From Tridacna crocea (taxonomy: Eukaryota > Mollusca > Bivalvia > Cardiida > Cardiidae): a DNA stretch of 64,000 nucleotides. Shown here piece by piece: positions 3,119 through 64,000 of this stretch. Position 1 is the first letter of the stretch; the number at the start of each line of letters is the position of its first letter. The stretch covers positions 40,334,728-40,398,727 of the forward strand of contig OX031069.1 of NCBI GenBank assembly GCA_943736015.1, read 5' to 3'. The position numbers were made by a program, and so were the translations under genes. The notes under the pieces were generated by a model that saw only the letters and a list, made by a program, of their open reading frames with translations, ran no database searches and was not told the origin of the DNA.

Positions 3119-3203
3119 ATATAGTCGGTGTACTTCGAAAACCTCGTAACTACAGCTTGTTACAAGCTGTAGTTACGAGGTTTTGGAAGTACACCGACGA
3201 TAT
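3119..3203. mobile_element. Family E palindromic mini-element, copy 1
   Basis: Near-perfect palindrome of about 84 bp centred on CAGCTTGTTACAAGCTG, with arms TACTTCGAAAACCTCGTAAC and terminal GTCGG/CCGACGATAT. No internal unique sequence remains. Confidence 0.85.
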
Positions 3204-4408: not shown

Positions 4409-4436
4409 CTATGGTTCTGTGCAGTCTGATCTTGAT
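4409..4436 (+). repeat. Family B right-arm fragment
   Basis: Only GTTCTGTGCAGTCTGATC and TTGAT of the B hairpin survive, directly abutting a family A element. Confidence 0.6.
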
Positions 4437-8195: not shown

Positions 8196-8267
8196 ATCGG
8201 ATAGTGTAGATCAAGATCAGACTGCACAGAATTTGCAGTCTGATCTTGGATCTACACTACTCGATTC
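8196..8267. mobile_element. Family B hairpin core
   Basis: ATCGGATAGTGTAGATCAAG with the complementary TTGGATCTACACTACTCGAT, around CAGACTGCACAGAATTTGCA. The flanks typical of the family are missing. Confidence 0.75.
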
Positions 8268-8285
8268 ATGATATTTTAACGTTCG

Positions 8286-8359
8286 AAAATGTTTCAATGT
8301 TTCCAAAAGGCTTCTACCTCAAGGTCGTCAAAAGTCGTCAGTGTGTGGAAAAGAGTTAA
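8286..8359 (-). repeat. Family A end fragment
   Basis: ATGTTTCCAAAAGGCTTCTA, then AAGGTCGTCAAAAGTCG and GTGTGGAAAAGAGTTAA. This is one end of a reversed family A copy without its hairpin. Confidence 0.65.
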
Positions 8360-8804
8360 TTAGCAATGATCTTATGCATCTATATGAGATAACTTGCTTG
8401 AAATAAAGCATCATAGAGTTGCATTAAACACCCTTTTGTTAGAGCAAGCCTCAAATTAATTTTACGCTTACATATCTGCAGGCTGCATCAAGGTTAAATT
8501 CAGTAATATCGACATTTAATTTTGACGCATTTCTGAACTTTAGGTTAAACTGTTCAGCTGAATGCATCGAAATGCGCTCTAATTTAGATTTACGATTCTA
8601 ACCTTGGAATAAAGTTCCTTAATGGGGTGTGGATTACTCATGCAGAATCGAAGAGGGGGATTAATTTGTCAACTATTTGAGAGAATAACGATGCATTTTA
8701 TCCCGGATATTTTTATTTTCCAAAAACCGCCTTATACTTGGACTCTTGCTGAACAAACCAAAAAGTAGACTGCTAAATACCTAACATAAAACTTTCAAGT
8801 CCAT

Positions 8805-8965
8805 AGTAACAACACAAGTTTTACAACTTCAAAGGTATTTTTAGAGGAAGAATATCTCCATATCGGACAGTATAGATCAAGATCAGACTGCACAGAACGT
8901 GCAGTCTGATCTTGATCTATTTTGTACGCAAAAGGTCGGTGAGTCGAGCTTAGCACGTTATAACC
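8805..8965 (+). mobile_element. Family B MITE, first of a tandem pair
   Basis: TTCAAAGGTATTTTTAGAGG, then TATCGGACAGTATAGATC, a hairpin around GCACAGAACGTGC, and the CGCAAAAGGTCGGTGAGTCG right flank. Confidence 0.85.
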
Positions 8966-9119
8966 CAAGCTTTTCTATTTCAAAGGTATTTTGAAAGATC
9001 ACTATCTCCTTATCGGACAGTTTAGATACAAGATCAGACTGCACGTTCTGTGCAGTCTGATCTTGATCTATGCTGTCCGCAAAAGGTCGGTGATTCGAGA
9101 TGAGCACCCAAAGGGTTAA
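8966..9119 (+). mobile_element. Family B MITE, second of a tandem pair
   Basis: TTTCAAAGGTATTTTGAAAG, then TATCGGACAGTTTAGATAC, a hairpin around GCACGTTCTGTGC, and GCAAAAGGTCGGTGATTCG. Ends AAGGGTTAA; this TTAA (9116-9119) is also the first base of the following family A copy. Confidence 0.85.
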
Positions 9120-9285
9120 TCTTCTACCAGACAATCAAGACTTTTGAAAGACTCCAAAAGAGATTTCTTTTTTATACAGTGGGAAAAGGAGCAAAATGCT
9201 ATTCATCAATATTTTGCCCCTTTTCCAAACTATTTTTTTCTACCCCTTTATTGACAAATCCGGTCCAATTTAAACAGATTTCATT
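9116..9285 (+). mobile_element. Divergent family A MITE abutting family B
   Basis: Starts at the shared TTAA, then ACCAGACAATCAAGACTTTT. A looser hairpin follows: GTGGGAAAAGGAGCAAAATG versus ATTTTGCCCCTTTTCC. The right part is degraded, and a further AC(A/T)TTGTTTTCTATCCC piece sits at about 9298-9315. Confidence 0.65.
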
Positions 9286-9428
9286 TGAGGTCTCCCACAT
9301 TGTTTTCTATCCCTCAAAGGATGAATAGCATTATTTGAAGGATACAGAAACTAGCATTCATAGGTTTCTGCATGAGCTGAAAATTTTTCAAACTAATCTA
9401 CAAAAATGTTAGAAAGCCAGCCTTTGAT

Positions 9429-12329: not shown

Positions 12330-12800
12330 CCGGCCAGGTAGCTCAATGGTTAGCGACACTCGATCTGATGGTTGCAGGAACGATACCTGGTTGTACATAG
12401 CAAACTCTCTTTCCGGTGAAATGCAGAGAAATGGCCCTCCCCTACAAAATGACCCGGGTCATTATAATACGTAGAGAAATGACACCAGACGTCATTTCAC
12501 TACGTAGAGAAAATACCAGGGTCATTATTCTACGTAGAGAAATGATCCGGGTCATGCCTCTATATACGTACAGAAATGACCCATGGAACATTCCTCTACC
12601 AAAATAGAAATGACTCATGGGTCATTTTATAGGGGAGGGTCATTTCTTTGCATTACATTGGCAATAATCTCTAATGCATGCGAGAAAACTAGTCCGTGGC
12701 TATGGTAGAGTGTTTTGTGTCAGCACTGGTGTGAGAAAGTCGGGCAAAACACAAAGTAAGTACACTGACCGCCATGATATGACATAAGCTACAATAACGG
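12330..12800 (+). mobile_element. tRNA-derived SINE split by a family J element
   Basis: Head CCAGGTAGCTCAATGGTTAG with box B-like GCAGGAACGATACCTGG; then AACTCTCTTTCCGG, where the J element begins (about 12414-12662). The SINE body resumes with CTCTAATGCATGCGAGAAAA and ends with CACTGACCGCCATGATATGA. The two halves together match the minus-strand copies. Confidence 0.75.
12414..12662. mobile_element. Family J nested-palindrome element
   Basis: Terminal inverted repeats GGTGAAATGCAGAGAAATGG and GGTCATTTCTTTGCATTACA. In between are repeated TACGTAGAGAAATGA units and the palindromes AATGACCCGGGTCATT and GACTCATGGGTCATT. Inserted in a SINE. Confidence 0.8.
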
Positions 12801-13867: not shown

Positions 13868-14096
13868 TTAACCCTTTCCAAAATAAGCCCTGGTTTTCAC
13901 GTGTCTGCAGTACAAGTCTTTTGAAAACACTGTGGGAAAAGGGGAAATTGCTCGTAACGAGCAATTTCCCCTTTTCCCACTGTGTTTTCTACCTGATATG
14001 AGAACTTTCTACCAATTTCATCAAATTTAAAATTGTTGCCTGCAAACTCTTTCAGATTGGAAGAGTCTAAAATGTTGTCGTTTGATAAAAGGTTAA
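13868..14096 (+). mobile_element. Intact family A MITE with variant hairpin centre
   Basis: TTAA at both ends (13868-13871 and 14093-14096). A strong hairpin AACACTGTGGGAAAAGGGGA, TTGCTCGTAACGAGCAA, then the complement CCCCTTTTCCCACTGTGTT. The arms carry a paired change from the usual A and TGG.CCA to G/C and TCG.CGA. Confidence 0.9.
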
Positions 14097-14540
14097 GGTC
14101 TACGGCCCATTACTCTCACATTAAAAGACGATGTCTGCGCATATCATATTCTTCGAAGATTCAACCTGTTTTATATGACGCATCACTATCCCCAAAATTG
14201 GGCAGCCTGTAGTAATACGCGATATAAAGTAGCAATAGAGAAAATGGTTTTTATCGATACGTTTGAGGAAAAATTAGGCCTGTTTTAGCCTCAGATTTCT
14301 CTAAACTGCTGAGCATAGCTTTGAGAATCGCACGAGGTAGCGTTTTATTGAGTAAACATTTATTTTACTTTAGAAATTCAAAACAACGGTTGTCGCGTAG
14401 GAAAGTGGTTCGGTTCTGTACCCATGATGCCCATATTAGATAGATGAGTAGTTATAGAATGCCATCAAGCGGAAGATAATGCCTCTAAAAGATGGAAGCT
14501 ACTGAGATTGGCCGAATGGCCTTTACGAAAACGTCGATGT
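14094..14540. repeat. Family H repeat interrupted by family G
   Basis: The left piece (14094-14130) has CATTACTCTCACATTAAAAG; the right piece (14486-14540) has GAAGCTACTGAGATTGGCCG plus AATGGCC. Joined, they resemble the uninterrupted copy at 24348-24430. Confidence 0.7.
14131..14481 (+). mobile_element. Family G element, about 350 bp
   Basis: Shares the G body: TCATATTCTTCGAAGATTC, TATATGACGCATCACTATC, GATTTCTCTAAACTGCTGA, GGTAGCGTTTTATTGAGTAA, end GGAAGATAATG. Flanks TAAAAGACG and TAAAAGATG are a probable 9-bp duplication with one mismatch, with a few extra bases on the right. Confidence 0.8.
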
Positions 14541-14654
14541 TTATTTACTTATGATTTGGGGCTCTTATACCTTAATCCCTTTGCAAACAATCCCATATTT
14601 CAAGTCTTATTCCCGTTAAATAAGTGAAATAAATAAATCAAGCCATTACTATAA

Positions 14655-16888: not shown

Positions 16889-17455
16889 CTTACCCTTTAC
16901 CACATGATCCCGAGTTTTAACGCCCTTCAGAAAAAATGCTTTTGAAAATTCGTTTCGGGAAAAGGAAGAGCATTCTCTACTTCCTGTGCAGTTTTTTTTT
17001 TCACATCCTAGCAATGAGAAATCCAGCCTTTGAGAAACATTTAATTTATCCAATCGTTGCCTGCTCATGTCATATTCTTCGAGGATATATATGACACATC
17101 ACTCTTCCTGATATCGGGTAGACTATAGTAGTACGCCCCATAAAGTAGCAATGGAGAAAATGGCTTTTATCAATACGTTTGAGGAAAAATCAGGCCTGTT
17201 TTAGCTCCTGATTTCTCTAAACTGCTGATGATAGTTGAGGGAATCGCACGAGGTAGCGTTTTATTGAGTAAACGTTTATTTTAGTTTGAAATTCAAAGTA
17301 AAGGGTTGCCGCGTAGAAAAGTGGTTCGGTTCTGTGCCCAGGATGCCAAAATTAGATAGATGAGAATTTATAGAATGCCATCTAGCGGGAGATAATGTTT
17401 ATCAAATGCTTTGGGTTTTGACAAGTCTAGAATTTCGTCGTTTGGGAAAAAGTTG
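16889..17455 (+). mobile_element. Family A MITE split by a family G element
   Basis: The left piece (16889-17053) has CTTACCCTTTACCACATGAT, CGAGTTTTAACGCCC and a worn hairpin; the right piece (17398-17455) has CAAATGCTTTGGGTTTTGAC, TCTAGAATTTCGTCGTTTGG. The G element sits between them. Confidence 0.75.
17054..17397 (+). mobile_element. Family G element inside family A
   Basis: TCGTTGCCTGCTCATGTCAT start and CTAGCGGGAGATAATG end. Flanks TTTATCCAA (17045-17053) and TTTATCAAA (17398-17406) are a 9-bp target duplication with one mismatch. Confidence 0.85.
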
Positions 17456-17805: not shown

Positions 17806-18035
17806 TTAACTCTAAACCAAAACAGCAAAATTTTAAACTGGTCCAAATTGAAAGTAGTTGCAGACGACAAAATCAACATCACTAAAAAATTGAAATTTGT
17901 TCTGGAAGGGTAGAAAACATTGTGGGAATAGGAGAAAATGCTGGTTACCAGCATTTTCTCCTTTTCCCATAATGTTTTCGAAAGCCTTCTTTTTTCTGGG
18001 CCGTGAAAACCAGGGATTATTTGGGAAAGTGTTAA
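17806..18035 (-). mobile_element. Full-length family A MITE
   Basis: TTAA at 17806-17809 and 18032-18035. Hairpin AACATTGTGGGAATAGGAGA with its complement around GCTGGTTACCAGC. Flanks GCAGACGACAAAATCAACAT and AGAAAGCCTTC-like sequence. One of the best copies. Confidence 0.9.
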
Positions 18036-18089
18036 TGTGTTCCAACGTTAACTTTTTGTGAAACGTTGAAACCAATAGAAACGGCATAA

Positions 18090-18233
18090 ATTTGTTCTCT
18101 TTCCAAGGTTTTTTGGAAACAATATCTTCTTATCGGACATGGTAGATCCAAGATCAGACTGCACATTCTAAGTCTACACTTTCTACTTGTCTGCGAAAGA
18201 TCAGTGAGTCGTGCTTAGCAATCAAAGGGTTAA
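18090..18233 (+). mobile_element. Family B MITE with broken hairpin
   Basis: ATCTTCTTATCGGACATGG, TAGATCCAAGATCAGACTGC; the right arm is shortened to AAGTCTACACTTTC. Right flank TCAGTGAGTCGTGCTTAGCA, ending AAAGGGTTAA (18230-18233). Confidence 0.8.
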
Positions 18234-19707: not shown

Positions 19708-19955
19708 GCCAGTGTAATGCAAACAAATGACCCTCCGCTACAAAATGTCTCAAGGGTAATTTCTCTACGTTGAGAAAACCCAGGTTATTATTTTACGTGG
19801 GCAAATGACCCCAGAGGGTCATTTTTCTACGTAGAAAAATGACCTGGGTCATTCCTCTACGTAGAGAAATAACCCCATGAGTCATTTCACTACGTAGAAT
19901 AATGACCCGTGTCATTTTGTAGGGTAGGCTCATTTCTCTGCATTTCACCGGGCCT
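19708..19955. mobile_element. Family J nested-palindrome element
   Basis: CAGTGTAATGCAAACAAATG at the left and GCTCATTTCTCTGCATTTCA at the right. Interior units TACGTAGAAAAATGACC and TACGTAGAGAAATAACC. Confidence 0.8.
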
Positions 19956-22284: not shown

Positions 22285-22514
22285 TTAATCCTTTACCACA
22301 CAATGACGACTTTTAACGCCCATGAAAGAGAAAGCTTTTGAAAACATTGTGGGAAAAGGAGAAAATGCCGGTTGCCAGCATTTTCTCCTTTTCCCACAAT
22401 GTTTTCTACCCTATAAAAGAAAAATCATTTTATATGAGCCACATTTAAACTATCATCTTAAATTGCTTTCAATTAGGTAAATTCTAAGATTTTTGTCGTG
22501 TGGTAAAGGGTTAA
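22285..22514 (+). mobile_element. Full-length family A MITE, first of an abutting pair
   Basis: TTAA 22285-22288 and 22511-22514. Hairpin AACATTGTGGGAAAAGGAGA with a perfect complement around GCCGGTTGCCAGC. Right end GTCGTGTGGTAAAGGGTTAA. Confidence 0.9.
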
Positions 22515-22716
22515 TTAACCACACAACCACAGCTTTTTAAGACCATTAGGGAGAAAGCTTCAGAAAACATTGTCGGAAAAGGAGAAAATTTGGTTACCAG
22601 CACTTCTTTCATTTCACACAATCTTGTTTATCCTATGATAGACATATTCAATGTAATTTGTTGTCTGCAAATGCTTTCAAATTGGACAAGGCTACAATTT
22701 AATCGGTTGGTAAGGA
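22515..22716 (+). mobile_element. Family A MITE, second of an abutting pair
   Basis: Begins at the very next TTAA (22515-22518) with CCACACAACCACAGC. Its hairpin is worn: GTCGGAAAAGGAGAAAATTT versus CTTCTTTCATTTCACAC. The end GGTTGGTAAGGATATAA has lost the TTAA. Confidence 0.75.
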
Positions 22717-23139
22717 TATAATAAAAAAAGCTGTATGGTCTGGTCGGGAATCCACCTTCTAGCACTTAGATACCGGTACATTTTAATCAACGTAAGCATG
22801 ATACGGGATAATTAATAATTAAATACAGCCCCTACAGATATTGCCTCAAGTAAGTAACCACAGAGCCGAATTACAGACCAAATCATTCAATTTATAACTG
22901 TGACCGCATAGTACAGTGTTGGGTTTGAGATAATGGCTGATGCTGAAATAAAATAAGCCATGCTTTGTGAGCAAGGGACTTTATGTATCTACCCTTGGAG
23001 TACGGAGGGGTACCAGACTAGAGTTTAGGATCCACAGAAAATGTGATGGCTCGCATGGTATGATTAGACACGGATTGTATAAAGCTTCCTTTCGCCAGAA
23101 CATGACTTGTATATAGGATCAGACATGAGTGGGCCTTTG
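22717..23139. other. Unassigned sequence
   Basis: No gene or family match. Confidence 0.4.
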
Positions 23140-23770
23140 AGATAAGTTTCATTAAACGAGTCATGGGAAATGTTATTAAGCGAGCCTTTGACGAGCTTAA
23201 TAACATTTCCCTTGACTAGCTTATTAAAATCTTACCTCAAAAGCCTACAAATGTCAGATTCTTTTTATCACATATTTCACAAAATATAGATCAAATGATG
23301 CAAGAACATTCATAAATGCACCCGCGGTATTTTCCATTCACTTGTATGAAATGCGTACAAAATGACGTCAAAAATGACGTCACACAAATGTGATATCAAA
23401 CGTACACGCGTGAGATAAGAAAATTCGTAATGGGTATATCACACTGAAAACAAGGGAGGTTATGTGATAAATAAATATTCCATGCTCAGGAAAAAGGGAG
23501 TTTTGAATGTCTCCTTTATGTCGTATACAAGCAAATCATCAAATAATCATGGATCTACGATAGCTGGTTATTTTTGATATGAAAAATATCTCACGAGGAT
23601 GCGTTGTTGGGCGTTGAAAAAACGAGTGTGCAGCACGAGTTTTTTTAACGCCTTAAGACGCATCCGAGTGACATATTTTTCATATCAAAAATAACCAGTT
23701 GATTATTCTATTTATTATATACCTTATTAACATTGTTATTTTTAATTTTTCATTTGAAAGTCGAATTCAA
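23140..23770. mobile_element. Family L composite foldback
   Basis: The left part has an inverted pair GGGAAATGTTATTAAGC and GCTTAATAACATTTCCC (about 23165-23211). The right part has GGTTATTTTTGATATGAAAA with its complement TTTTCATATCAAAAATAACC, and GGATGCG/CGCATCC. Two adjacent TGACGTCA octamers lie at 23363-23370 and 23375-23382. Fragments recur at 9734-10219 and 10869-11069. Confidence 0.7.
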
Positions 23771-25946: not shown

Positions 25947-26194
25947 CTTTCTTTTCTTTTCAATAAAACCTCACTTATATTGTTCTGTGTAGTTTGATCT
26001 TACTCTTCAAAGTTTATACAAAGTGAAGGGGGGGGGAGTTACCTTCATAAGGCACACTCTGGTAATTTTTAAGCGAGTATAATGCATCTCAAAAGCATGG
26101 ATCAATAGAATCATTTTTTGTCTAAAAACCTCATTAGGTCTAAATCTTGGAGTAGACTGGTGCTTTGACATACAGAACATTGACAAATAGCAAA

Positions 26195-26245
26195 AAGTGT
26201 TGACCAAGGTCAGCCTGCGCAGACCTTGGTCAATAGTTTTTGCCG
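26195..26245. repeat. Family D fragment
   Basis: GTTGACCAAGGTCAGCCTGC followed by GCAGACCTTGGTCAATAG: a shortened D palindrome. Confidence 0.75.
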
Positions 26246-26314
26246 ATGCATTTTTATTTTTAAACATATTGATTTTACATGTATTGCGAAACAAGTTCTT
26301 ACAAGTTATATTAA

Positions 26315-27989: not shown

Positions 27990-29785
27990 AGAAAACTTGT
28001 GTATGGTGATCTGAATATATCATTTATTTACTTCATGGAAGAGAAAATTTCACCGGAAAGTTTTTTAACAAGAAAAATTGCTAGCAAAAAAAAAGGCAAC
28101 AGTTCAGAAAAAAAAATTACATTTATTTCTAATGGATTGTCTATTATGCATCCATGCAATGAGGGCAAAGAAAGGTATCCCTCTTCTCAGGAACCTTACT
28201 TTAGAGCAGTACTGCAAATGAGTCCAATGGAAACAACTGTCGCACTGTGCCCACTTGATAAAAAATGGGTTGTAACAATCCCTGGCCTCCGTCGGATAGA
28301 ACAAATTACACACACAGCTACAAATTTCTTTTTAGGCTTCTTTACAGCCTTAGTAATCTTTTTCGCGTTAAAGAAGGCCTCAGTTTTATCCCTTGTACAC
28401 TCATCAATTGGTAGGTTGGATGACTGAGGGGGTTAAGGGTATACTGGTGTTTGTATGAGAAGGGGGGATAGGAATGTCTCTTGTAAGGGCATTGGAGTTT
28501 GGGGTAAGATCATTTCTTGGTTTAGATACCGGGAGTTCTTCAGAGATTTCTGGGGCATTTGGGGTTTCGGGTGCTTCTGAGTGGTAAATAACTGCAGGTG
28601 CCAACTGTGAAGAAGAAAATACCTGGTTGTTGAAAGGGTAACTGCCTGATTTATGAAAACCTGACATGATGTTTTCTGGACAAAGTGCTTTCTAGTAGGG
28701 TCTTGATGTCAGCTTGGCAACCTAATATAATGTATTAATTCTTGGGTTTTGATGTAGGTAAGACTGGCATTCCCTATAATAATGACACTTTAAAGGGCCA
28801 AAGACACCAACATCTTGTGGTTGGGTTAGGTGGCTGGTGTGCGGTGGAAGTACAAAAAGAATAACCCGTCTTCTACTAGCCTACTCAGTAAAATGTCAGC
28901 AACAAATGAGACCTATGGCAATCATACAAAAGTAAAGTGGGCTCACAAACATTGCCTTGTTTAATGACTGCGTGTTTTGCAAATTGACCCATATATTACA
29001 CATTTTATTCCGTTGGACCAACCAGAATCTGACATCATTCCATCTGAACGGACTGTGGCACCAGCAAAAAGCTCGTCTGTCCATCTTTTTCCCTGGAACA
29101 CATAGAATGGCGGTATGCGATTTCCCAGGGCATTGGCTCCTGCGATTATTGTAACATTTGCAGATCTAGGAAAGGTTATCGCTTGAGGATCTTTGTTTTT
29201 CAGCACACAATTTTGGGGGTGAATGTTCAGTGCTGATTCCAGTCTCGTTAAGATTATAAATAGGCTCAGGTGCATTGAAGAGAAAATTCTCCTCTTGAAC
29301 AGTCTCGAGCTCCATGAAATACTTGCTAATTGTTTCTTTGTTTGCATCTTTTGCACTCGTAGTGTGAAGTTTTTGTGGTTTGACCATTTTTATATCTGGC
29401 CAACGCTTTGAAAAACCATAAAACCAGTGATCACGTATTCCATCCTTTGCCCCAACTGTTTTTCCAAGGGACCTTGCAAAGTCAGCTGCCATGAATTGAA
29501 TATTCCCTTTAGTGTAACCGTAGCCAATATTTGCCATGTATGACATGTGCTCAACCATTTTACTCTCTTCTAAATTAGTGAAAATTCTCTTTGGTGCCAT
29601 ATGAGCATCTAGTGGCTGTTTTCCCCGTGTACGATCACGTAAGTTGGATTCCGGGACACTATACTTTCGGGAAGCCCTGTAGACAGATGTTCCACCTTTT
29701 GTGGCTTCAAAGGCTCTAAGAAGGTTAGCTTTATCATATGGCTTATCAATGTTTGCTTTGGTCTCATCCTGAAGGCATTACACAT
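27990..29785 (-). pseudogene. Pogo/Tigger-type (Tc1/mariner superfamily) transposase, degenerate
   Basis: A transposase of the Pogo class binds TIRs and cuts with a DDE/D nuclease. Read on the minus strand, the frame opens near 29785 with DKPYDKANLLRAFEATKGG and YRASRKYSVPESNLRDR, a psq-type helix-turn-helix. FTNLEESKMVEHMSYMANIG and DWFYG-like sequence (HWFYGFSKRWPDIKMVK) form the CENP-B-like domain. The first catalytic block reads IYNLNETGIS, where Asp is expected, so the aspartate seems lost. A one-base frameshift near 29190 moves the DDE domain to the frame with ANVTIIAGANALGNRIPPFY. Further breaks follow; VILFVLPPHTSHLTQP plus QDVGVFGPLK (28789-28870) is the conserved C-terminal DDE segment. 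The tail encodes FHKSGSYPFN, then CVIC and WAQCDSCFHWTHLQYC, a PHD-like Cys/His cluster. No continuous ORF survives, so it is inactive. Upstream of the frame is CCTTCAG, possibly an old splice acceptor. TIRs were not found. Family call confident; detailed clade is inference. Confidence 0.85.
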
Positions 29786-34521: not shown

Positions 34522-34873
34522 CGTTGTCTACGCATCTCATATTCTTCGAAGATTCGACCTATCTTATATGACGCATCACTCTCCACAATATCGGGGAGAT
34601 TGTAGTAATACGCGCTTTAAAGTAGCGATGGAGGGAATAGCTTTTATCAATACGTTTGAGGAAATATCGGGTCTGTTTTAGCTCCAGATTTCTCTAAACT
34701 GCTGCTCATAGCTGAATGAAACGCACCAGGTAGCGTTTCATTGCGTAAACGTTTATTCTAGTTTGAAATTTAAAGTAACGGTTGTCGCGTAGAAAAGTAG
34801 CCCGGTTCTGTACTGAGGATGCCCAAATTAGATATATGAGTATTTGTAGAATGCCATCTAGCGGGAGATAATG
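34522..34873 (+). mobile_element. Family G element with perfect 9-bp duplication
   Basis: CGTTGTCTACGCATCTCATA start and CTAGCGGGAGATAATG end, flanked by GAACTAGAC at 34513-34521 and 34874-34882. The ends show only a weak inverted match (CGTTGTCT / CATTATCT on the other strand). Confidence 0.9.
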
Positions 34874-35334: not shown

Positions 35335-35515
35335 GTGACCAAGTGAAGGCAAAAGGTAACCGATGGGGGTCAAATGAAGGCAAAAAATAAACGACATAAT
35401 TATGTCAAATGAAGGCAAAAAGTAAACGAGAGGTCAAATGAGGGCAAAAAGTAAACGACAGAGGTCAAACGAAGGCAAAAAGTAAACGACAGAGGTCAAA
35501 TGAAGGCAAAGTTAA
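35335..35515 (+). repeat. About six 30-bp tandem units
   Basis: GAGGTCAAATGAAGGCAAAA then AGTAAACGAC, repeated with small indels. The array stops at the TTAA that starts the next family A copy. Confidence 0.9.
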
Positions 35516-35762
35516 CCCTTAACCTGCTAAATTACGTAGCCAATTACTCCATACATACTCCTTTCTACGCATTGCTTGTAGGAGCCTTTGGAAAACATTG
35601 TGACAAAAGGTGAAATTACTCGTGACGAGTAATTTCACCTTTTGTCACAATGTTTTCTATGATATCAAAGTGTCATATACCCATCAGAAACTGCTTCATC
35701 CTTGCTATTATTTAGGGTCAATTAGAGATACCATTGAAATGCCTTGTGGGGTAAAGGGTTAA
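35512..35762 (+). mobile_element. Family A variant with a different perfect hairpin
   Basis: TTAA 35512-35515 and 35759-35762. Hairpin AACATTGTGACAAAAGGTGA, AATTACTCGTGACGAGTAAT, TCACCTTTTGTCACAATGTT. The palindrome is perfect although its sequence differs from the standard A arm at about seven positions. The flanking sequence is poorly related to other A copies. Confidence 0.85.
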
Positions 35763-35983
35763 CTTTTACCAAACGACAAAATTTTATAGTGGTCCAAATT
35801 GAAAGCACTTACAGACGACAAAATAAATGTGACTAAAGAATTGAAATTTGTTTTAGGAAGGACAGAAAACATTGTGGGAAAAGGAGAAAATGATGGTTAT
35901 CGGCATTTTCTCCTTTTTCCACAATGTTTTCATAAGGCTTTCACAGAGGTGTTAAAAGTAGGGATTGTGTGATAAAGGGTTAA
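35759..35983 (-). mobile_element. Full-length family A MITE sharing a TTAA
   Basis: Uses TTAA 35759-35762 as its left flank and 35980-35983 as its right. CCAAACGACAAAATTTTATA, TTACAGACGACAAAATAAAT, hairpin around GATGGTTATCGGC (one arm mutated). Confidence 0.9.
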
Positions 35984-36019
35984 ACGAAACAAAAACCGAT
36001 AATATACTTTTTTGAATAT

Positions 36020-36170
36020 TGCTCTTTGAAACATAATGCTTTGAAGAAAAAAAATCATTATTGGACAGTGTAGATCTTAAATCAGACCACACGTGTGTAC
36101 GTTCTGTGCAGTCTGATCGATCTACACTATCCGCAAAAGGTCATGGAGTCGCACTTAGCAGCGTCAGTAT
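36020..36170 (+). mobile_element. Family B MITE
   Basis: ATTATTGGACAGTGTAGATC, centre with an added ACACGTGTGTACG, then TGCAGTCTGATCGATCTACA and TATCCGCAAAAGGTCATGG. Loop enlarged by a small insertion. Confidence 0.8.
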
Positions 36171-36824
36171 TAATTCATACAATTACAAGGGATGCATATT
36201 ATTCTAAGTTTGACAATGTGTCAAAGTATCCTTGGTCAAAGTTTCAAGAGCTATTAGATAAATAAAGAGTAAAACTAGAATTAAAGATAGGTAACATCCT
36301 TACAGTTAGAAAAAAAAGTCAACACCTTTACAGTTAGGAAAAAAATAACCTTTGATACGCTGTTGAATAGTTCAGATTTTGGTCTGCAAATACGAATCGC
36401 TGATGTATATGGTATGCAAACACATTTTATATCCATTACCGATGTATATACATGTAGTATAGGGGATATATATATATATATATTGGCAGTCCTCCACTTA
36501 CAACCGGATGTTCTACGTCTAAAACATGGTTTCTTTGATGGCTCCCAGAAAATGAAATGCATTTTCTATCAGTCGAAATCTGTGCACACTTACATGGGCA
36601 ATATTATGAAGATACAAAAATGATCATGGTTCGATGAAATAATGGATGAAATGTGTTAAACGCTGGCTGAAAACAATTAAGAGGTGTACCCTTAAAAGTT
36701 GTCAACATTCAATCACAGATTCTAGGCTACATATCTTTCACAACCACCTTCCTCTTTACATAGCAATGTGTTGTTGTAATACTCTGTCATGTAATAACGA
36801 GTTATTGTCCGGAATATTATGGTT
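36171..36824. other. Unassigned sequence with AT repeat
   Basis: TATATATATATATA at about 36467-36482. The 93-residue and 86-residue frames overlap on opposite strands and look random. Confidence 0.4.
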
Positions 36825-37000
36825 TGTATAGCATTGCGGATGTGGAGAAATTGTTGGCAGCCAGCATTTTCTCCATTTCCCGCAGTGTTTGATAACTCAT
36901 TAAAAGAAACCCAAGCATTTGATCCAAACTTAATTTGTCCATTGCAAAAGCTTTTAGTTTTGGACAAGTCCACATTTTCCAGCGTGGAAAAGAGCTAATT
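36825..37000 (+). mobile_element. Degenerate family A MITE
   Basis: GCGGATGTGGAGAAATTG, GCCAGCATTTTCTCCATTTC, CCGCAGTGTTTGATAACTC, then GCTTTTAGTTTTGGACAAGT. The left end is lost. Confidence 0.6.
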
Positions 37001-38644: not shown

Positions 38645-38725
38645 ACGCTTTGTTAGAACTACTTTTGAAATAAAATGGATATTTCAAATATCCATTTTAT
38701 TTCAAAAGTGGTTCTAACAATGCTT
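38645..38725. mobile_element. Near-perfect palindrome, family Q
   Basis: TTGTTAGAACTACTTTTGAA plus ATAAAATGG pairs with CCATTTTATTTCAAAAGTGG plus TTCTAACAA. About 34-base arms, one mismatch, almost no loop. Ends 3 bp before a family A TTAA. Confidence 0.85.
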
Positions 38726-38728
38726 TGT

Positions 38729-38957
38729 TTAACCCTTTTCCAAACAATCCCTGGTTTTTACGGGTCTGGAATAGTAGCCTTTTGAAAACATTGTGGGAAA
38801 AGGAGAAAATGCTGGTAACCAGAATTTTCTCCTTTTCCCACAATGTTTTCTACCCTATCATAGACAGAAATCATCTTTTCCGCAAGAGTTGAAATGTCGT
38901 CTGCAAATGCTTTCAGTTTGGTCTAGTCCAAGAGTTTGTCGTTTGGGAAAGGGTTAA
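38729..38957 (+). mobile_element. Full-length family A MITE
   Basis: TTAA 38729-38732 and 38954-38957, TIRs TTAACCCTTTTCCAAAC and GTTTGGGAAAGGGTTAA perfectly complementary over 17 bases. Hairpin with one centre mismatch (AACCAGAATTTT). The best copy for defining the ends. Confidence 0.95.
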
Positions 38958-39675: not shown

Positions 39676-40384
39676 CCTTTTCGGGCCGTTATAAGCATGT
39701 ATTTACGGGTAAAAATCGGGCGGTTAACGGAAGAAAACGTGTATTAATCAGTAAATTCACGCGCCGTTAACGCCCGGGTTTGTACTATCAATATCCTCGA
39801 TTCGGGCCTACCTTGTAAACAACGTTTGTCCTTGTCAGATTTTCCCTAGACTCCGACCATCAAACTGTAGGAATTCGTACCATATTCGATCCTTTCCATG
39901 GCATGTCTTTGATGATATTAGTACACCACAAACAAACCTTTGCACAGAATCTCAGTTTAATCGAGATCTGAACAAAAATTCACCTGTGAAATGTACTCTA
40001 AACCAGCTACATCCCACCCACTTTTTAACGTGATCGGTCCGCCTCGCTTGATGTATATCGAACCCTCTGTCGCCTTCAGTTACAGAAATTCGTAACCACG
40101 CATTCATCCTAGTTGTAATCGTCCAAGTGTGTGCAAGTTTATTCCACATAAGTCCAGTGTACACGTATTAAAAATCAATAAAAGTGTATTTACAGAGAGA
40201 GAATCAAAACTGGCATACAGGACTAACGGCCCTTTCCTAATCGTAACAAAAACTTCTTCGCCGACTTCCGGTTTTGACCCATTTGCGTACAGTACATTTG
40301 AAATTCGCTTATTTGCATTTTTATGGAAATATTTTTGCTATCTGTGCAAATTATTATTAGAATACCTTTACTTTATGCAATAAT
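39676..40384. other. Mostly unassigned, with a CCGTTAACG-rich stretch
   Basis: GGGCGGTTAACGGAAGAAAA and GCGCCGTTAACGCCCGGG form an imperfect inverted pair at about 39716-39777, similar in style to the following foldback. Confidence 0.45.
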
Positions 40385-40530
40385 AGCGTTAATTCACGTT
40401 TTTTTCGGTCGTTAACATTCGCAGAGGCCCTCAAAATACTTAAACACCCTCGTGCTTCGCACTCGGGCGTTAAAGCATTTTTCGGGCCTCTTCGAATGTT
40501 AACGACCTCAAAAACGTGAATTAACCCTAT
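40385..40530. mobile_element. Long foldback element
   Basis: GTTAATTCACGTTTTTTTCG, GTCGTTAACATTCG, AGAGGCCC pair with GGGCCTCTTCGAATGTTAAC, GACCTCAAAAACGTG, AATTAAC. Loop contains CTCGTGCTTCGCACTCG. Confidence 0.8.
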
Positions 40531-41954: not shown

Positions 41955-42697
41955 TTAACACTAGCTTTTTTTTCTATTTCAAAGCCATGGGGGTGGAGAT
42001 ATCTCCTTGTCATACAGAATAGATTCAAGATATAGAGGATATTTGTTTTTTTCGGTGTAAGATCGAAATTTATTTCATCTCGTGGACACCATCGGTAATA
42101 TTTTCACTCGTGGCTGCGAAATTTATTTCATCTCGTGGACACCATCGGTAATATTTTCACTCGTGGCGCTGCGAAATTTATTTCATCTCGTGGACACCAT
42201 CGGTAATATTTTCACTCGTGGCGCAGGCCACGAGTGAAAATATTACCGATGGTGTCCACGAGATGAAATAAATTTCGATCTTTCACCGAAAATGAAATAA
42301 ATTTCGATCTTTCACCGAAAAAAACAAATATTCTATTTATTTTATGCTTTTAACCCTTTCTGGGAGGAGCTTTATCAAAATTCGGTAGAGTTCTTTTCCC
42401 TTATTCCCCGTGGCGTACCCCTCCCGCTCAACGTTACGTCAAGCGCGTGAAATGTAAGGTATATGACGTCATATTTCCTATCTGGTTGTTAGGCACGCGC
42501 AATTTACCTAGGCAACAAGAACGTGAAAATCGGTATTTTCACTGGTGATACCAGTGTAAGATCGAAAAATATTTTCACTGCTATTTCTCGATATCCTACC
42601 GGAAAGCATGAAATAAAGCGCGATTAATGCAGTCTGATCTTGATAGACACTGTCTGCAACAGGTTTGTGAGTCGCGCTTAGAATCCTTTGGGTTAAT
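41955..42697 (+). mobile_element. Family B MITE split by a family F element
   Basis: The left half has TTTCTATTTCAAAGCCATG, GAGATATCTCCTTGTCATAC, AGATTCAAGAT; the right half (42619-42697) has TGCAGTCTGATCTTGATAG, ACACTGTCTGCAACAGG, GTGAGTCGCGCTTAG and GGGTTAA. F occupies the middle of the hairpin. Confidence 0.85.
42016..42616 (+). mobile_element. Family F element with triplicated foldback arm
   Basis: TAGAGGATATTTGTTTTTTT start. Three tandem copies of GAAATTTATTTCATCTCGTG plus GACACCATCGGTAATATTTT (about 58 bp each) precede the reverse arm, which also carries a short duplicated GAAATAAATTTCGATC. Unique part with TGACGTCA at 42464-42471; ends GGAAAGCATGAAATAA. Confidence 0.9.
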
Positions 42698-49319: not shown

Positions 49320-50290
49320 CTGCTTTATGTTGGCGTTTAGCGCAGAAAAATCCATACAGTCTAAAACAGATGAGAACAGTTGCCAAAGTTATCTGTTAAA
49401 AGAGGGAACATTTGAAATGTCCAAATTGTGATCACAATACCTATGATAAAAAAAATCAGCCATATACTATTTGAATGTACTGATAAAGCAGTCTTGACAA
49501 CAAAAAAAGATTATATCTCTTATATCAAGGATCATATTTCAATAGATCTTCATAATTATATGATACATATTAGCCCAGTACTTTTCATAAAGTATTTACT
49601 ATGCTTCATGGATGAAAACATTAAGTCTCTTTTATCCGCAGATAACTACGCAAAGTTCATGTTCGCAAACGCATGTCTTCTGTATACAAACTACACGTAG
49701 TTAGAACGACATAAAGATGTTTATTTAAACTGAAAATTTGGCTACTAGAGCGATTCCATTTCGCCGGAACAGCTCTCCGTAGATATAATCCAACATATTT
49801 GAACATCAAGTGTTATATTTTGTACAAAGATTTTTTTTCTCCTTTCTGTAATTATAAATGCTTTGGTAAATGTATGACAACCCTTCTGTTCACACTATCC
49901 TATATTCTTCCTCTTCCATGTGCTTTCACCCCCCCCCCCCCTTTCATCCATGCTACCCATCCGCTTCTTTTCCTCCTATCTCTCCTTTGTCATTTTTACT
50001 CATCTGCTTCATATTCTCATTCTTCTCTTTCTTATTTTTCTCTTTCCTCTGTCCCGGTGCCCTGTCTGTCGGCCTGTCGGTCAGTCTGTCTGTGTCTGTA
50101 TCTTTGTTTCTGTCTGTCTCTCGCTGTCTGTCTCGGCCCCCCTTTTTTTTCTCAAACCTTTTTCTAACTTCATTTAAAGATTGCTATTGTTAATTTTCTT
50201 TTCTTTTTCTCTAAATTTTGTTTGTATTGTACATGAACTCTTCAAAAAATGGAGGAATAAAAAGAAATAATAATAATAATAATGGTTGAT
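49320..50290 (+). mobile_element. 3' remnant of a second LINE
   Basis: KCPNCDHNTYDKK (about 49418) and, one frame away, KISHILFECTDKAVL (from 49441) give the CPxC...H..FEC layout of the zinc-knuckle that closes many LINE ORF2 proteins (RVT zf). The frame runs to the stop at 49700. Then comes a 3' UTR with a pyrimidine-rich block at 49905-50160 and an AATAATAATAATAAT tail at 50266-50284. The whole reading order supports a truncated LINE; the clade is unknown. Confidence 0.6.
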
Positions 50291-54784: not shown

Positions 54785-55625
54785 AATTATTTATTTCATG
54801 CCTTTCGGTAGTTTGTAGAAAAGTAGTGATGTATTATGGATTGATATTTCATGGTTACCAATCGTGAAAAATACCGTTTTCATATTTTCTAACTCATCAT
54901 TTGAAGGCGGAAACGGAAGTTTCAGCACACTTATTACATAGGAAAACAGCGTTGTCTGTGCATGTCATATTCTTCGAAGATTCGACTGTCTTATATGACG
55001 CATCACTAGCCCCGAAAGCGGGCTGACTAATATTACACTCTATAAAGTAGCAATGTAGGAAATAGCTTTTATCATTACGTTTGCGGAGAAATAAGACATG
55101 CATTAGCTCAAGATTTCTCTAAACTGCTTATCATAGCTGAGTGAATTACACAAGGTAGCGTTTTATTGAGTAAACGTTTATTTTAGTTTGAAATTCAAAG
55201 TAACGGTTGTCGCGTAGGAAAGTGGTTTGGCTCTGTACCCACGATGCCCAAATTAGATGAGTATTTATAGAATGCCATCTAGCGGGAGATAATGGGAAAA
55301 CAGCGCATGCCATTTAACCAGAGTGAAATACATGACGTGATTTACCCGTATACATCTTACATTTCGTGCGCTTTACATAATTTTGCGATGGGTTCTTATA
55401 TGGTGGGAGGGGGTATGCCACGTGGAATTACCGAAAACAAATACATGCATACTAGATTTTGACGAAAGTTCCATTCAATATGGGATTTAGAGCATGAAAT
55501 AAATAGATTATTTATTTTTGGCTAGATATGCAAATTTATTTCATCTTGTGAACATCACCGGTAATATTTTCACAAGCGACGCAGCCTCTCGTGAAAATAT
55601 TACCGATGATGTTTTTGTAACATTG
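54785..55625 (-). mobile_element. Reversed family F element carrying a family G insertion
   Basis: TTATTTCATGCCTTTCGGTA at the left is the complement of the F 3' end; GAGGGGGTATGCCACGTGG and AGCATGAAATAAATAGAT follow after the insertion; the foldback is AACATCACCGGTAATATTTT / AAAATATTACCGATGATG. The CRE-like octamer has decayed to TGACGTGA. Confidence 0.75.
54950..55294 (+). mobile_element. Family G element with perfect 9-bp duplication
   Basis: CGTTGTCTGTGCATGTCATA start and CTAGCGGGAGATAATG end; GGAAAACAG at 54941-54949 and 55295-55303. 345 bp. Confidence 0.9.
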
Positions 55626-57033: not shown

Positions 57034-57122
57034 GTTAAATGCATCTGCAAAAGGTATCGACCAAGGTCAGCCTGCGCAGTTCGCGCAGGCTGACCTTGGT
57101 CGAGACCTTTTGCAGTACATAG
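57034..57122. mobile_element. Intact family D palindrome
   Basis: CTGCAAAAGGTATCGACCAA, GGTCAGCCTGCGCAGTTCGC, GCAGGCTGACCTTGGTCGAG, ACCTTTTGCAG. A near-perfect palindrome that follows AAGGGTTAA. Confidence 0.9.
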
Positions 57123-61914: not shown

Positions 61915-62010
61915 CAAATACAGAAATGCATTGCAAAAATACAGAAATGCATTGCAGAAATACTGAAATGCATTGCAGAAATACAGAAATGCATTGCAGA
62001 AATACAAGGA
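61915..62010 (+). repeat. 21-bp tandem repeat, four units
   Basis: ACAGAAATGCATTGCAGAAA units with a 21-bp period, one or two substitutions. The period is a multiple of three, so the minus strand stays open through the array, but this is a repeat and not a gene. Confidence 0.9.
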
Positions 62011-62400
62011 CCAGGCAGGATTCTAACCTAGGACGCCCGAACGAAAGGCCAACACCATAACCAGTGTGCAAAAGAGGATTCTCCTTAACGCAGTTGTTAC
62101 GCATTGTATCTAAACTGGGATGAAGCCATGCATGAAGGTGTTGTCTCCCGTAACGAATCTAAAGGTCATCATTTAAAGATGACTCAAAGCCTTATTAGGC
62201 AAATGGGATTAATGGCTCGAAGACCAATCCCGGACGTTCCCCCATATTTACAAACGAAGTCCGTAACAAAGAAACAAATTAAGAAATGCATAGCAGAAAT
62301 ACAGTCCCATCTTACGAACAAAGTCCGTAAAAAAGAAACAGATTAAGAAATACATAGCAGAAATATAGGAACCGGGCAGGATTCGAACCTTCTGGTGTGG
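62011..62400 (-). mobile_element. tRNA-like SINE pieces of the second type
   Basis: On the minus strand TGGTGTTGGCCTTTCG and TAGGTTAGAATCC (about 62010-62070), and AGGTTCGAATCCTGCC (about 62375-62395), give box B sequences, the latter a perfect match. A 62-bp duplication (62254-62304 and 62316-62368, GTCCGTAACAAAGAAAC type) lies between. Related to 21186-21325. Confidence 0.6.
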
Positions 62401-62630: not shown

Positions 62631-62770
62631 AAAAAAAATGTGTGAACCATCGGCCTAAATTTTTCATTTCTTTTATCTAGAAGGATAAGTAGTAAAGTAT
62701 GGTATGCTGAGCCTTGCGAACGACGCCCGTCCTGGAAGGCTTCACACTGATGAAATTCATATATCCAAGA

Positions 62771-64000
62771 TGTCTACTGTGCCGCTCGTTTCTTTTGTCT
62801 ACAGTGCCACTCGTTTCTTTTGTCTACAGTGCCACTCGTTTCTTTTGTCTACAGTGACACTCGTTTCTTTTGCCTACAGTGACCCTCGTTTCTGTTACCT
62901 ACAATGCAACTCGTTTCTTTTGTCTACAGTGCCACTCGTTTCTTTTGTCTACAGTGACGCTCGCTTATTTTTTGTCTACAGTGCCGCTCGTTTCTTTTGC
63001 CTACAATGCCAGTCGTTTCTTTTGCCTACATTACCAGTCGTTTCTTTTGCCTACAGTGCTGCTCGTTTCTTTTTGTCTACAATGCCGCTCGATTCTTTTG
63101 TCTACAGTACCACTCGTTTCTTTTGTCTACAGCGCCGCTCGTTTCTTTTGTCTACAGTACCGCTCGTTTCTTTTGTCTACAGCGCCGCTCGTTTCTTTTG
63201 TCTACAGTACCGCTCGTTTCTTTTGTCTACAGTGCCGCTTAGTTCTTTTGCCTACAGCGCCGCTCGTTTCTTTTGCCTACAGTGCCGCTCGTTTCCTTTG
63301 CCTACAGTGCCACTCGTTTCTTTTTCCTACAGTACTGCTCGTTTCTTTTGCCTACAGTGCCGCTCGTTTCTTTTTGTCTACAATGCCGCTCGTTTCTTTT
63401 GCCTACAGTGCCACTCGTTTCTTTTTGTCTACAATGCCACTCGTTTCTTTTGTCTACAATGCCGCTCGTTTCTTTTGCCTACAGTTCCACTCGTTTCTTT
63501 TTGTCTACAATGCCACTCGCTTCTTTTGTCTACAGTGCCACTCGTTTCTTTTGTCTATATTGCCGCTCGTTTCTTTTGTCTACAGTGCCACTCGTTTCTT
63601 TTGCCTACAGTGCCACTCGTTTCTTTTGCCTACAGTGCCGCTCGTTTCTTTTGTCTACAGTGCCGCTCGTTTCTTTTGCCTATAGTGCCGCTCGTTTCTT
63701 TTGCCTACAGTGACAGTCGTTTCTTTTGCCTACAGTGCCGCTCGCTTCTTTTGCCTACAATGCAACTCGTTTCTTTTGCCTACAGTGCCGCTCGTTTCTT
63801 TTGTCTACAGTGCCGCTCCTTTCTTTTGCCTACAGCGCCGCTCGTTTCTTTTGTCTACAGTGCCACTCCTTTCTTTTTGCCTACAGCGCCGCTCGTTTCT
63901 TTTGCCTACAGTGCTACTCCTTTCTTTTGTCTACAGTGCCGCTCGTTTCTTTTGCTTACAGTGCTGCTCGTTTCTTTTGCCTATAATGATGCTCGTTTCT
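62771..64000 (+). repeat. 25-bp minisatellite, about 49 units, open at the window edge
   Basis: Unit TTTCTTTTGYCTACARTGCC then RCTCG. Some units gain one T (26 bp). Since 25 is 1 mod 3, three units make a 25-residue peptide repeat. All three frames are stop-free for long stretches, giving a 271-residue frame at 62870-63685 (VSFAYSAARFFCLQC type). I treat that as an artefact of the repeat: no start context, no codon bias independent of the unit. Confidence 0.95.

Follow-up and report, generated by a model that had tools for sequence, protein, structure and literature searches.

Shared TTAA junctions between probable piggyBac-type miniature elements in a crowded 64-kb locus of Tridacna crocea

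How does a single TTAA come to be the border of two transposable elements at once? The question is raised by a stretch of 64,000 nucleotides of Tridacna crocea contig OX031069.1 (positions 40,334,728 to 40,398,727; hereafter the window, with coordinates counted from its first letter), in which the TTAA at 35759-35762 was originally predicted to be common to two copies of a short repeat family, family A, and in which further A copies were reported to abut one another or copies of a second family, B, at a TTAA. We conclude with considerable confidence that A, B and a related element, A1, are old, non-coding miniature inverted-repeat transposable elements (MITEs) of piggyBac type, which share TTAA sites through later TTAA landings in a crowded locus.

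Homology supports element ends on both sides of three TTAA sites (9116, 22511 and 35759). At 35759-35762, the left element, A1 (35512-35762, plus strand), reads TTAA-CCCTTAACC ... GGTAAAGGG-TTAA and ends ...GGGGTAAAGGGTTAA, and the right element, A2 (35759-35983, minus strand), starts on the same TTAA, as had been proposed. As a full copy of A, A2 matches profile columns 1-224 (nhmmer, E 6.6e-63), and its end at this site reads GGTAAAAG against the consensus GGTAAAGGG. The claim that A1 is likewise a family A element holds only for the palindrome core and the part to its left (profile columns 21-138, matched at 35556-35673 with E 1.3e-16); its right half is unrelated to A. A1 and A2 stand in opposite orientations and match at 76% over 76 bp around the palindrome. 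The meeting of two A copies at 22511-22518, which reads TTAATTAA, was also recovered: A3 (22285-22514, plus strand, E 3.1e-63) ends ...GGTAAAGGGTTAA at the TTAA 22511-22514, and A4 (22515-22721, plus strand, columns 11-223, E 6.8e-34) reads TTAACCACACAA, without CCC at its left end and with a decayed right end (ATAA). A4 may truly share the first TTAA, via a deletion of the CCC and one substitution. A3 and A4 have the same orientation and match at 77% over 129 bp. Since the members of both abutting A pairs are diverged and A1 and A2 point in opposite directions, they are read as separate insertions. At 9116-9119, the contact between the two families was confirmed, the right end of a B copy meeting the left end of a decayed A copy (9116-9350, plus strand, columns 2-142, E 4.4e-10, with profile position 2 at 9117), the 3' end of which is placed only approximately.

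Besides the junctions of the original list there are further candidates. A fourth shared site is probable at 35980-35983, the outer TTAA of A2, on which a probable B copy begins (35980-36173, plus strand; core at 36055-36142, right-end TTAA at 36170 supported by alignment, left end set from the length of the family). Each of the four sites combines one intact and one decayed end, a pattern that the landing of a younger copy next to an older one would produce (an order of insertion that we infer), but four cases prove little. The exact string GGG-TTAA-CCC does not occur in the window. Decayed junctions are candidates at 36995 (A and A, CTAA) and at about 8935 (B and B, TTATAACCC). Two further candidates are 933, where a palindrome family, I, meets A but a third family I copy lacks a TTAA at the corresponding point, and 21123, where A meets a repeat recurring at 61979-62142; the second copy of this repeat lacks the TTAA, which counts against the candidate. 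Three sites were rejected, 5436 and 10556 because no repeat begins on the far side and 37860 because no partner was seen. The TTAACCC of family C (11689, 25331 and 42350) was also discarded as an element end, the same sequence running on both sides in three of three cases. A roughly 31-bp short tandem repeat fills 35340-35510; a single base separates it from A1's outer TTAA.

The A copies were delimited with a profile of 229 positions built from ten of them, which gave 55 rows in an nhmmer search of the window. These rows were sorted by hand, 21 palindrome self-matches to the other strand being dropped and two rows merged into their neighbours, which left 31 A stretches with A1 counted apart; some of them are pieces of one split copy (16891 and 17402, perhaps also 41071 and 41269). 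The consensus ends read CCCTTTACC and GGTAAAGGG. According to hand tallies of the ends within profile reach, TTAA is intact at 11 of 17 5' ends and at 12 of 18 3' ends (nine exact, three one base off), counts that are raised by the profile itself, which includes TTAA and therefore reaches intact ends more readily. Outside these ends, the DNA is unrelated between copies, and TTAA is found at both ends of, for example, the copies at 13868, 17806, 20911, 22285 and 38729. Among these, the copy at 38729-38957 (plus strand; alignment and profile) is a well-preserved stand-alone element in which neither end has lost its TTAA or CCC/GGG, and the profile places a further TTAA-flanked copy at 17806-18035 (minus strand). 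A separate repeat family of about 350 bp has four copies that are 82-84% alike (14129-14481, 17055-17397, 34522-34873 and 54950-55294), two of them flanked by 9-base direct repeats (GAACTAGAC and GGAAAACAG). Since the copy at 17055 lies inside an A element, that A copy is the older of the two.

Family B was followed through core matches and alignment. All of its left ends are estimates; the one at 35980 takes B to be about 190 bp long, as at 18048-18233 (plus strand), a copy that lies a few bases past the TTAA of the A copy at 17806-18035 and serves as the best guide to the B left end, itself estimated. The B copy at the 9116 junction (8934-9119, plus strand) has the right end CAAAGGG-TTAA and an estimated left end; this right end (...CCCAAAGGGTTAA) resembles those at 18230 and 42693. 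A second B copy (8790-8938, plus strand, both ends estimated) abuts it at the decayed TTATAACCC. In B, the palindrome loop is present in both orientations, and between the neighbours at 8890 and 9041 it is inverted (GCACAGAACGTGC versus GCACGTTCTGTGC, the orientation of 8890 being taken from the flanks of that copy), as though its hairpin had turned over. At 4430 and 8258-8295, A copies are joined to B palindrome sequence with no TTAA at the joint; we propose that these are chimeras or the result of later deletions between neighbours.

A link to piggyBac had been drawn from the TTAA and from inverted ends starting with CCC. Among the 942 sides of the 471 TTAA sites in the window, CCC follows on 30 (6.0 expected under a second-order Markov model) and the GGG control on 7 (6.3 expected). 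An end-like 10-base score of at least 6 is reached on 34 of these sides (3.6%) versus 0.4-1.0% at seven other A+T 4-mers. There is thus strong support that the window elements are bounded by TTAA with CCC ends. They carry the terminal CC[C/T]T motif of piggyBac-type MITEs, and TTAA stands at both element ends. Judged by eye, the terminal inverted match extends over 10 bp in the A consensus (CCCTTTACCA) and over 9 bp with one mismatch in A1, and becomes weaker inward. In animal piggyBacs, CCCTT is described as the commonest terminal motif and TTAA as the usual duplication (PMC10813416); for piggyBac-type MITEs of corals, mostly CCCTTT ends and terminal inverted repeats of 12-19 bp are given (PMC2872659).

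Several results weigh against this assignment. At several A ends within reach of the profile, the TTAA is decayed. Pfam detected no piggyBac transposase domain in the 94 frames scanned among the window's 102 open frames of at least 75 aa (the other eight are six of low complexity at 62689-64000 and an overlapping pair at 49870-50190); its matches were HTH_psq and five weak ones (E 0.0016-0.007), all to domains other than piggyBac. Exact-pattern scans for relatives returned nothing from a genome-contig collection and, for three patterns, nothing from viral contigs, both collections being ill-suited to a eukaryote. A 17-mer present in 19 viral contigs was judged to be a chance match from the BLAST matches listed, for two of five queries, the best of which covers 28 bases at 89% (E 0.002). 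What stands of the piggyBac link are the excess of CCC, the TTAA at the boundaries of homology and the agreement with published motifs, while the frames scanned provide no transposase, and piggyBac-type TTAA-targeting is the likely assignment. A transposase encoded elsewhere, the class of which we infer, would recognise the CCCTTT... termini, cut the element out, insert it at a TTAA and duplicate that TTAA. Each insertion would leave two TTAA copies, both of which are again targets, so that in a crowded locus some later copies would land beside older ones and share a TTAA with them.

Mobilisation by another superfamily with this target, such as Kolobok or Sola3, the latter of which also duplicates TTAA, appears very improbable. 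Kolobok is likewise described as using and duplicating TTAA, with termini of the type 5'-RR...YY-3' (PMC9587614), whereas those of the window elements are CCC...GGG. Side-by-side copies could also have arisen by tandem duplication or slippage instead of separate insertions, as proposed for the arrays of CMITEs in corals (PMC2872659), and the two B copies that lie head to tail at 8790-9119 fit such an origin. However, A1 and A2 are inverted, the B/A and A/B contacts join different families and A3 and A4 retain only 77% identity; in addition, CMITE arrays are described as having highly similar units and spacers (PMC2872659), unlike the neighbours in the window. Since these are diverged and of mixed orientation, tandem duplication is disfavoured for the A/A and A/B pairs, and we consider it improbable overall. 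Similarly improbable are composite units, in which two abutting MITEs would move as one larger element via their outer ends. This idea would suit the A/B fusions near 4430 and 8258-8295 and also palindrome family I (878-939, 26190-26253 and 57037-57115, from repeat comparison), as two of its three copies stand directly at a TTAA with a CCC end on the opposite side, the neighbour being the end of an A copy (TTAA 933) in one case and the end-like GGAAAAGGG (TTAA 57035) in the other. Yet TTAA is missing from that position in the third family I copy, and A/A, B/A and A/B pairs were each found once in the window.

The original prediction held that new elements insert into the flanking TTAA of old ones and so build arrays. 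As a mechanism, this agrees with abutting copies that are diverged and of mixed orientation; that arrays were built by preference is not established. In a preferred-landing scenario, the TTAA beside an element would be a hot spot, for instance because a transposase bound to the old end draws in new copies, and arrays would be actively built. Permutation tests lean towards it: with 17 left-side labels distributed over the 471 sites against 13 right-side labels, three shared sites were seen versus 0.47 expected (P 0.010), and when labels were permuted within blocks of 4, 8 and 16 kb, 0.60-0.73 were expected (P 0.030, 0.031 and 0.019). A wider permutation, extended by one A-like end and by the B ends rated as probable (19 versus 18 labels), gave four versus 0.73 (P 0.005; 0.008-0.015 in blocks). 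Profile, alignment and end-score results were combined manually into the end lists; the A-like 5' end at 14572 was counted only in the wider test, and family-less end-like sites, among them 46804, 54083 and 57035, in neither. A simulation of sequential landing, in which element number and detectability were assumed, points the other way, with 1.9, 3.6 and 5.4 truly shared sites for 30, 41 and 50 elements and, after thinning for decay, 0.68-1.63 detectable ones (P of at least three sites 0.03-0.22, of at least four 0.005-0.08). Taken together, three to four shared sites stand against 0.5-1.6 expected, with P ranging from 0.005 to 0.22 by model, in tests made post hoc on one 64-kb window in which the junctions had been noticed beforehand. 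Sharing exceeds the expectation for random DNA, and the case for an excess over random use of TTAA sites is weak. Because the test is post hoc and P depends on the model, we read the sharing as a natural outcome of TTAA targeting in a crowded locus; a mild excess over random TTAA use is possible, and preferred landing as such seems rather unlikely. What the shared sites show is that a TTAA next to an existing copy was used in later insertions; a preference does not follow from this. The Stowaway-like DcSto MITEs of carrot belong to a different superfamily from the window elements, one that targets TA. For them, clustered insertions are reported to be preferred (PMC3695323).

The internal palindrome of the elements is a less usual feature than the shared sites. 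In family A, the core is a palindrome of 67 bp (profile columns 56-122), and in A1, which retained it despite an unrelated right half, folding and arm comparison reveal two perfect 33-bp arms around one base (35591-35657). RNA folds of the core reach -50.7 kcal/mol in A1 (z -14.4), -36.3 in A2 (z -10.2) and -48.9 in B at 9009-9085 (z -12.4). In 15 of 15 near-full copies whose core is complete, similarity to the other copies is higher in the core than in the flanks (Wilcoxon P 3e-5), a result favoured by the fact that A copies were found largely via their core. A preceding comparison of seven copies was biased, as these had been picked by the core; near-full length and a complete core were required for the set of 15. 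Across 24 copies with 672 pair cells, the arms contain 24 compensated changes, versus 7.8 on average and 21 at most when arms were shuffled between copies 5000 times, and overall arm pairing is 0.778 versus 0.735 in the shuffles; since the copies are related by subfamily, the pair cells are not independent events. Six of the 24 compensated changes, and no unpaired ones, separate A1 from the A consensus, and two are common to A1 and the copy at 13868. Pairing of the core can be explained by either a constraint on source elements or arm-to-arm correction, and the data favour neither. A speculative extension is that the palindrome is a separately maintained module placed on different TTAA bodies (A and A1), the arms of which are mutually corrected by template switching or fold-back repair and thus stay paired and conserved while the rest drifts. 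Mobilisation may depend on the palindrome, for instance through binding of the transposase to it, and it may also make its neighbourhood a preferred landing site. The palindromes known to be bound by the piggyBac and piggyBat transposases are described as 19 bp and about 14 bp long (PMC11707139), short in comparison with the 67 bp of family A.

The remainder of the window offers little coding sequence. ARAGORN found no tRNA, Rfam at gathering thresholds gave no match in the window, and a phage search with 35500-36000 was also without a match. Only ten bacterial-type frames of at least 120 aa are present, the longest (271 aa) being of low complexity. Among the frames, Pfam gave its clearest match at 29169-29777, where a transposase-like frame contains a Psq-type helix-turn-helix; this frame belongs to a group of apparently broken transposase-like frames at 28899-29777 (minus strand; HTH_psq, E 1.9e-4), which we take to be pogo/Tigger-like. 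Judged by this content alone, most of the window is non-coding DNA of a eukaryote, probably an animal. A repetitive sequence at 62689-64000 contains several overlapping open frames with recurrent SFLLSTVPLVSF-like peptides. The window is also rich in further long palindromic repeats of several families, which repeat comparison placed at 1804-1959, 2496-2748, 3119-3203, 12417-12657, 19709-19951, 23564-23698, 38647-38723, 40383-40530 and 42172-42277, among others.

The closest precedent is provided by the CMITEs of Acropora corals, which are described with TTAA, mostly CCCTTT-type ends and a short non-coding body, a better conserved internal region common to families with different ends, and copies lying side by side (PMC2872659). 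This likeness is one of features. A conserved internal region common to different ends was found here in 15 of 15 copies and in A1, with the bias of a core-led search for copies. Differences are also apparent: CMITEs are given as about 100 bp long, with a published core of 60 bp and array units that are highly similar (PMC2872659), whereas the window elements measure about 186-251 bp, have the 67-bp palindrome core and stand beside diverged neighbours of mixed orientation. Elements of the animal piggyBac superfamily resemble them in the TTAA duplication and the CCCTT/CCCAT motif (PMC10813416), but the window elements are without a transposase. The Kolobok elements and T2-MITEs of Xenopus share the TTAA target and the abundance of MITEs, but are described with terminal RR (AGGRR) instead of CCC (PMC6004289; PMC9587614). 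A search of the open-access literature by topic, and neither by sequence nor in repeat databases, found no published account of A, A1 or B; as far as this literature shows, they are new families of a known kind, TTAA MITEs. The window thereby documents TTAA MITE families dense enough to abut, and a TTAA that is shared between elements requires a TTAA-aware null model before a landing preference is claimed. The A core with its co-changing arms resembles the unexplained conservation of the CMITE core, a question that can now be tested in another genome.
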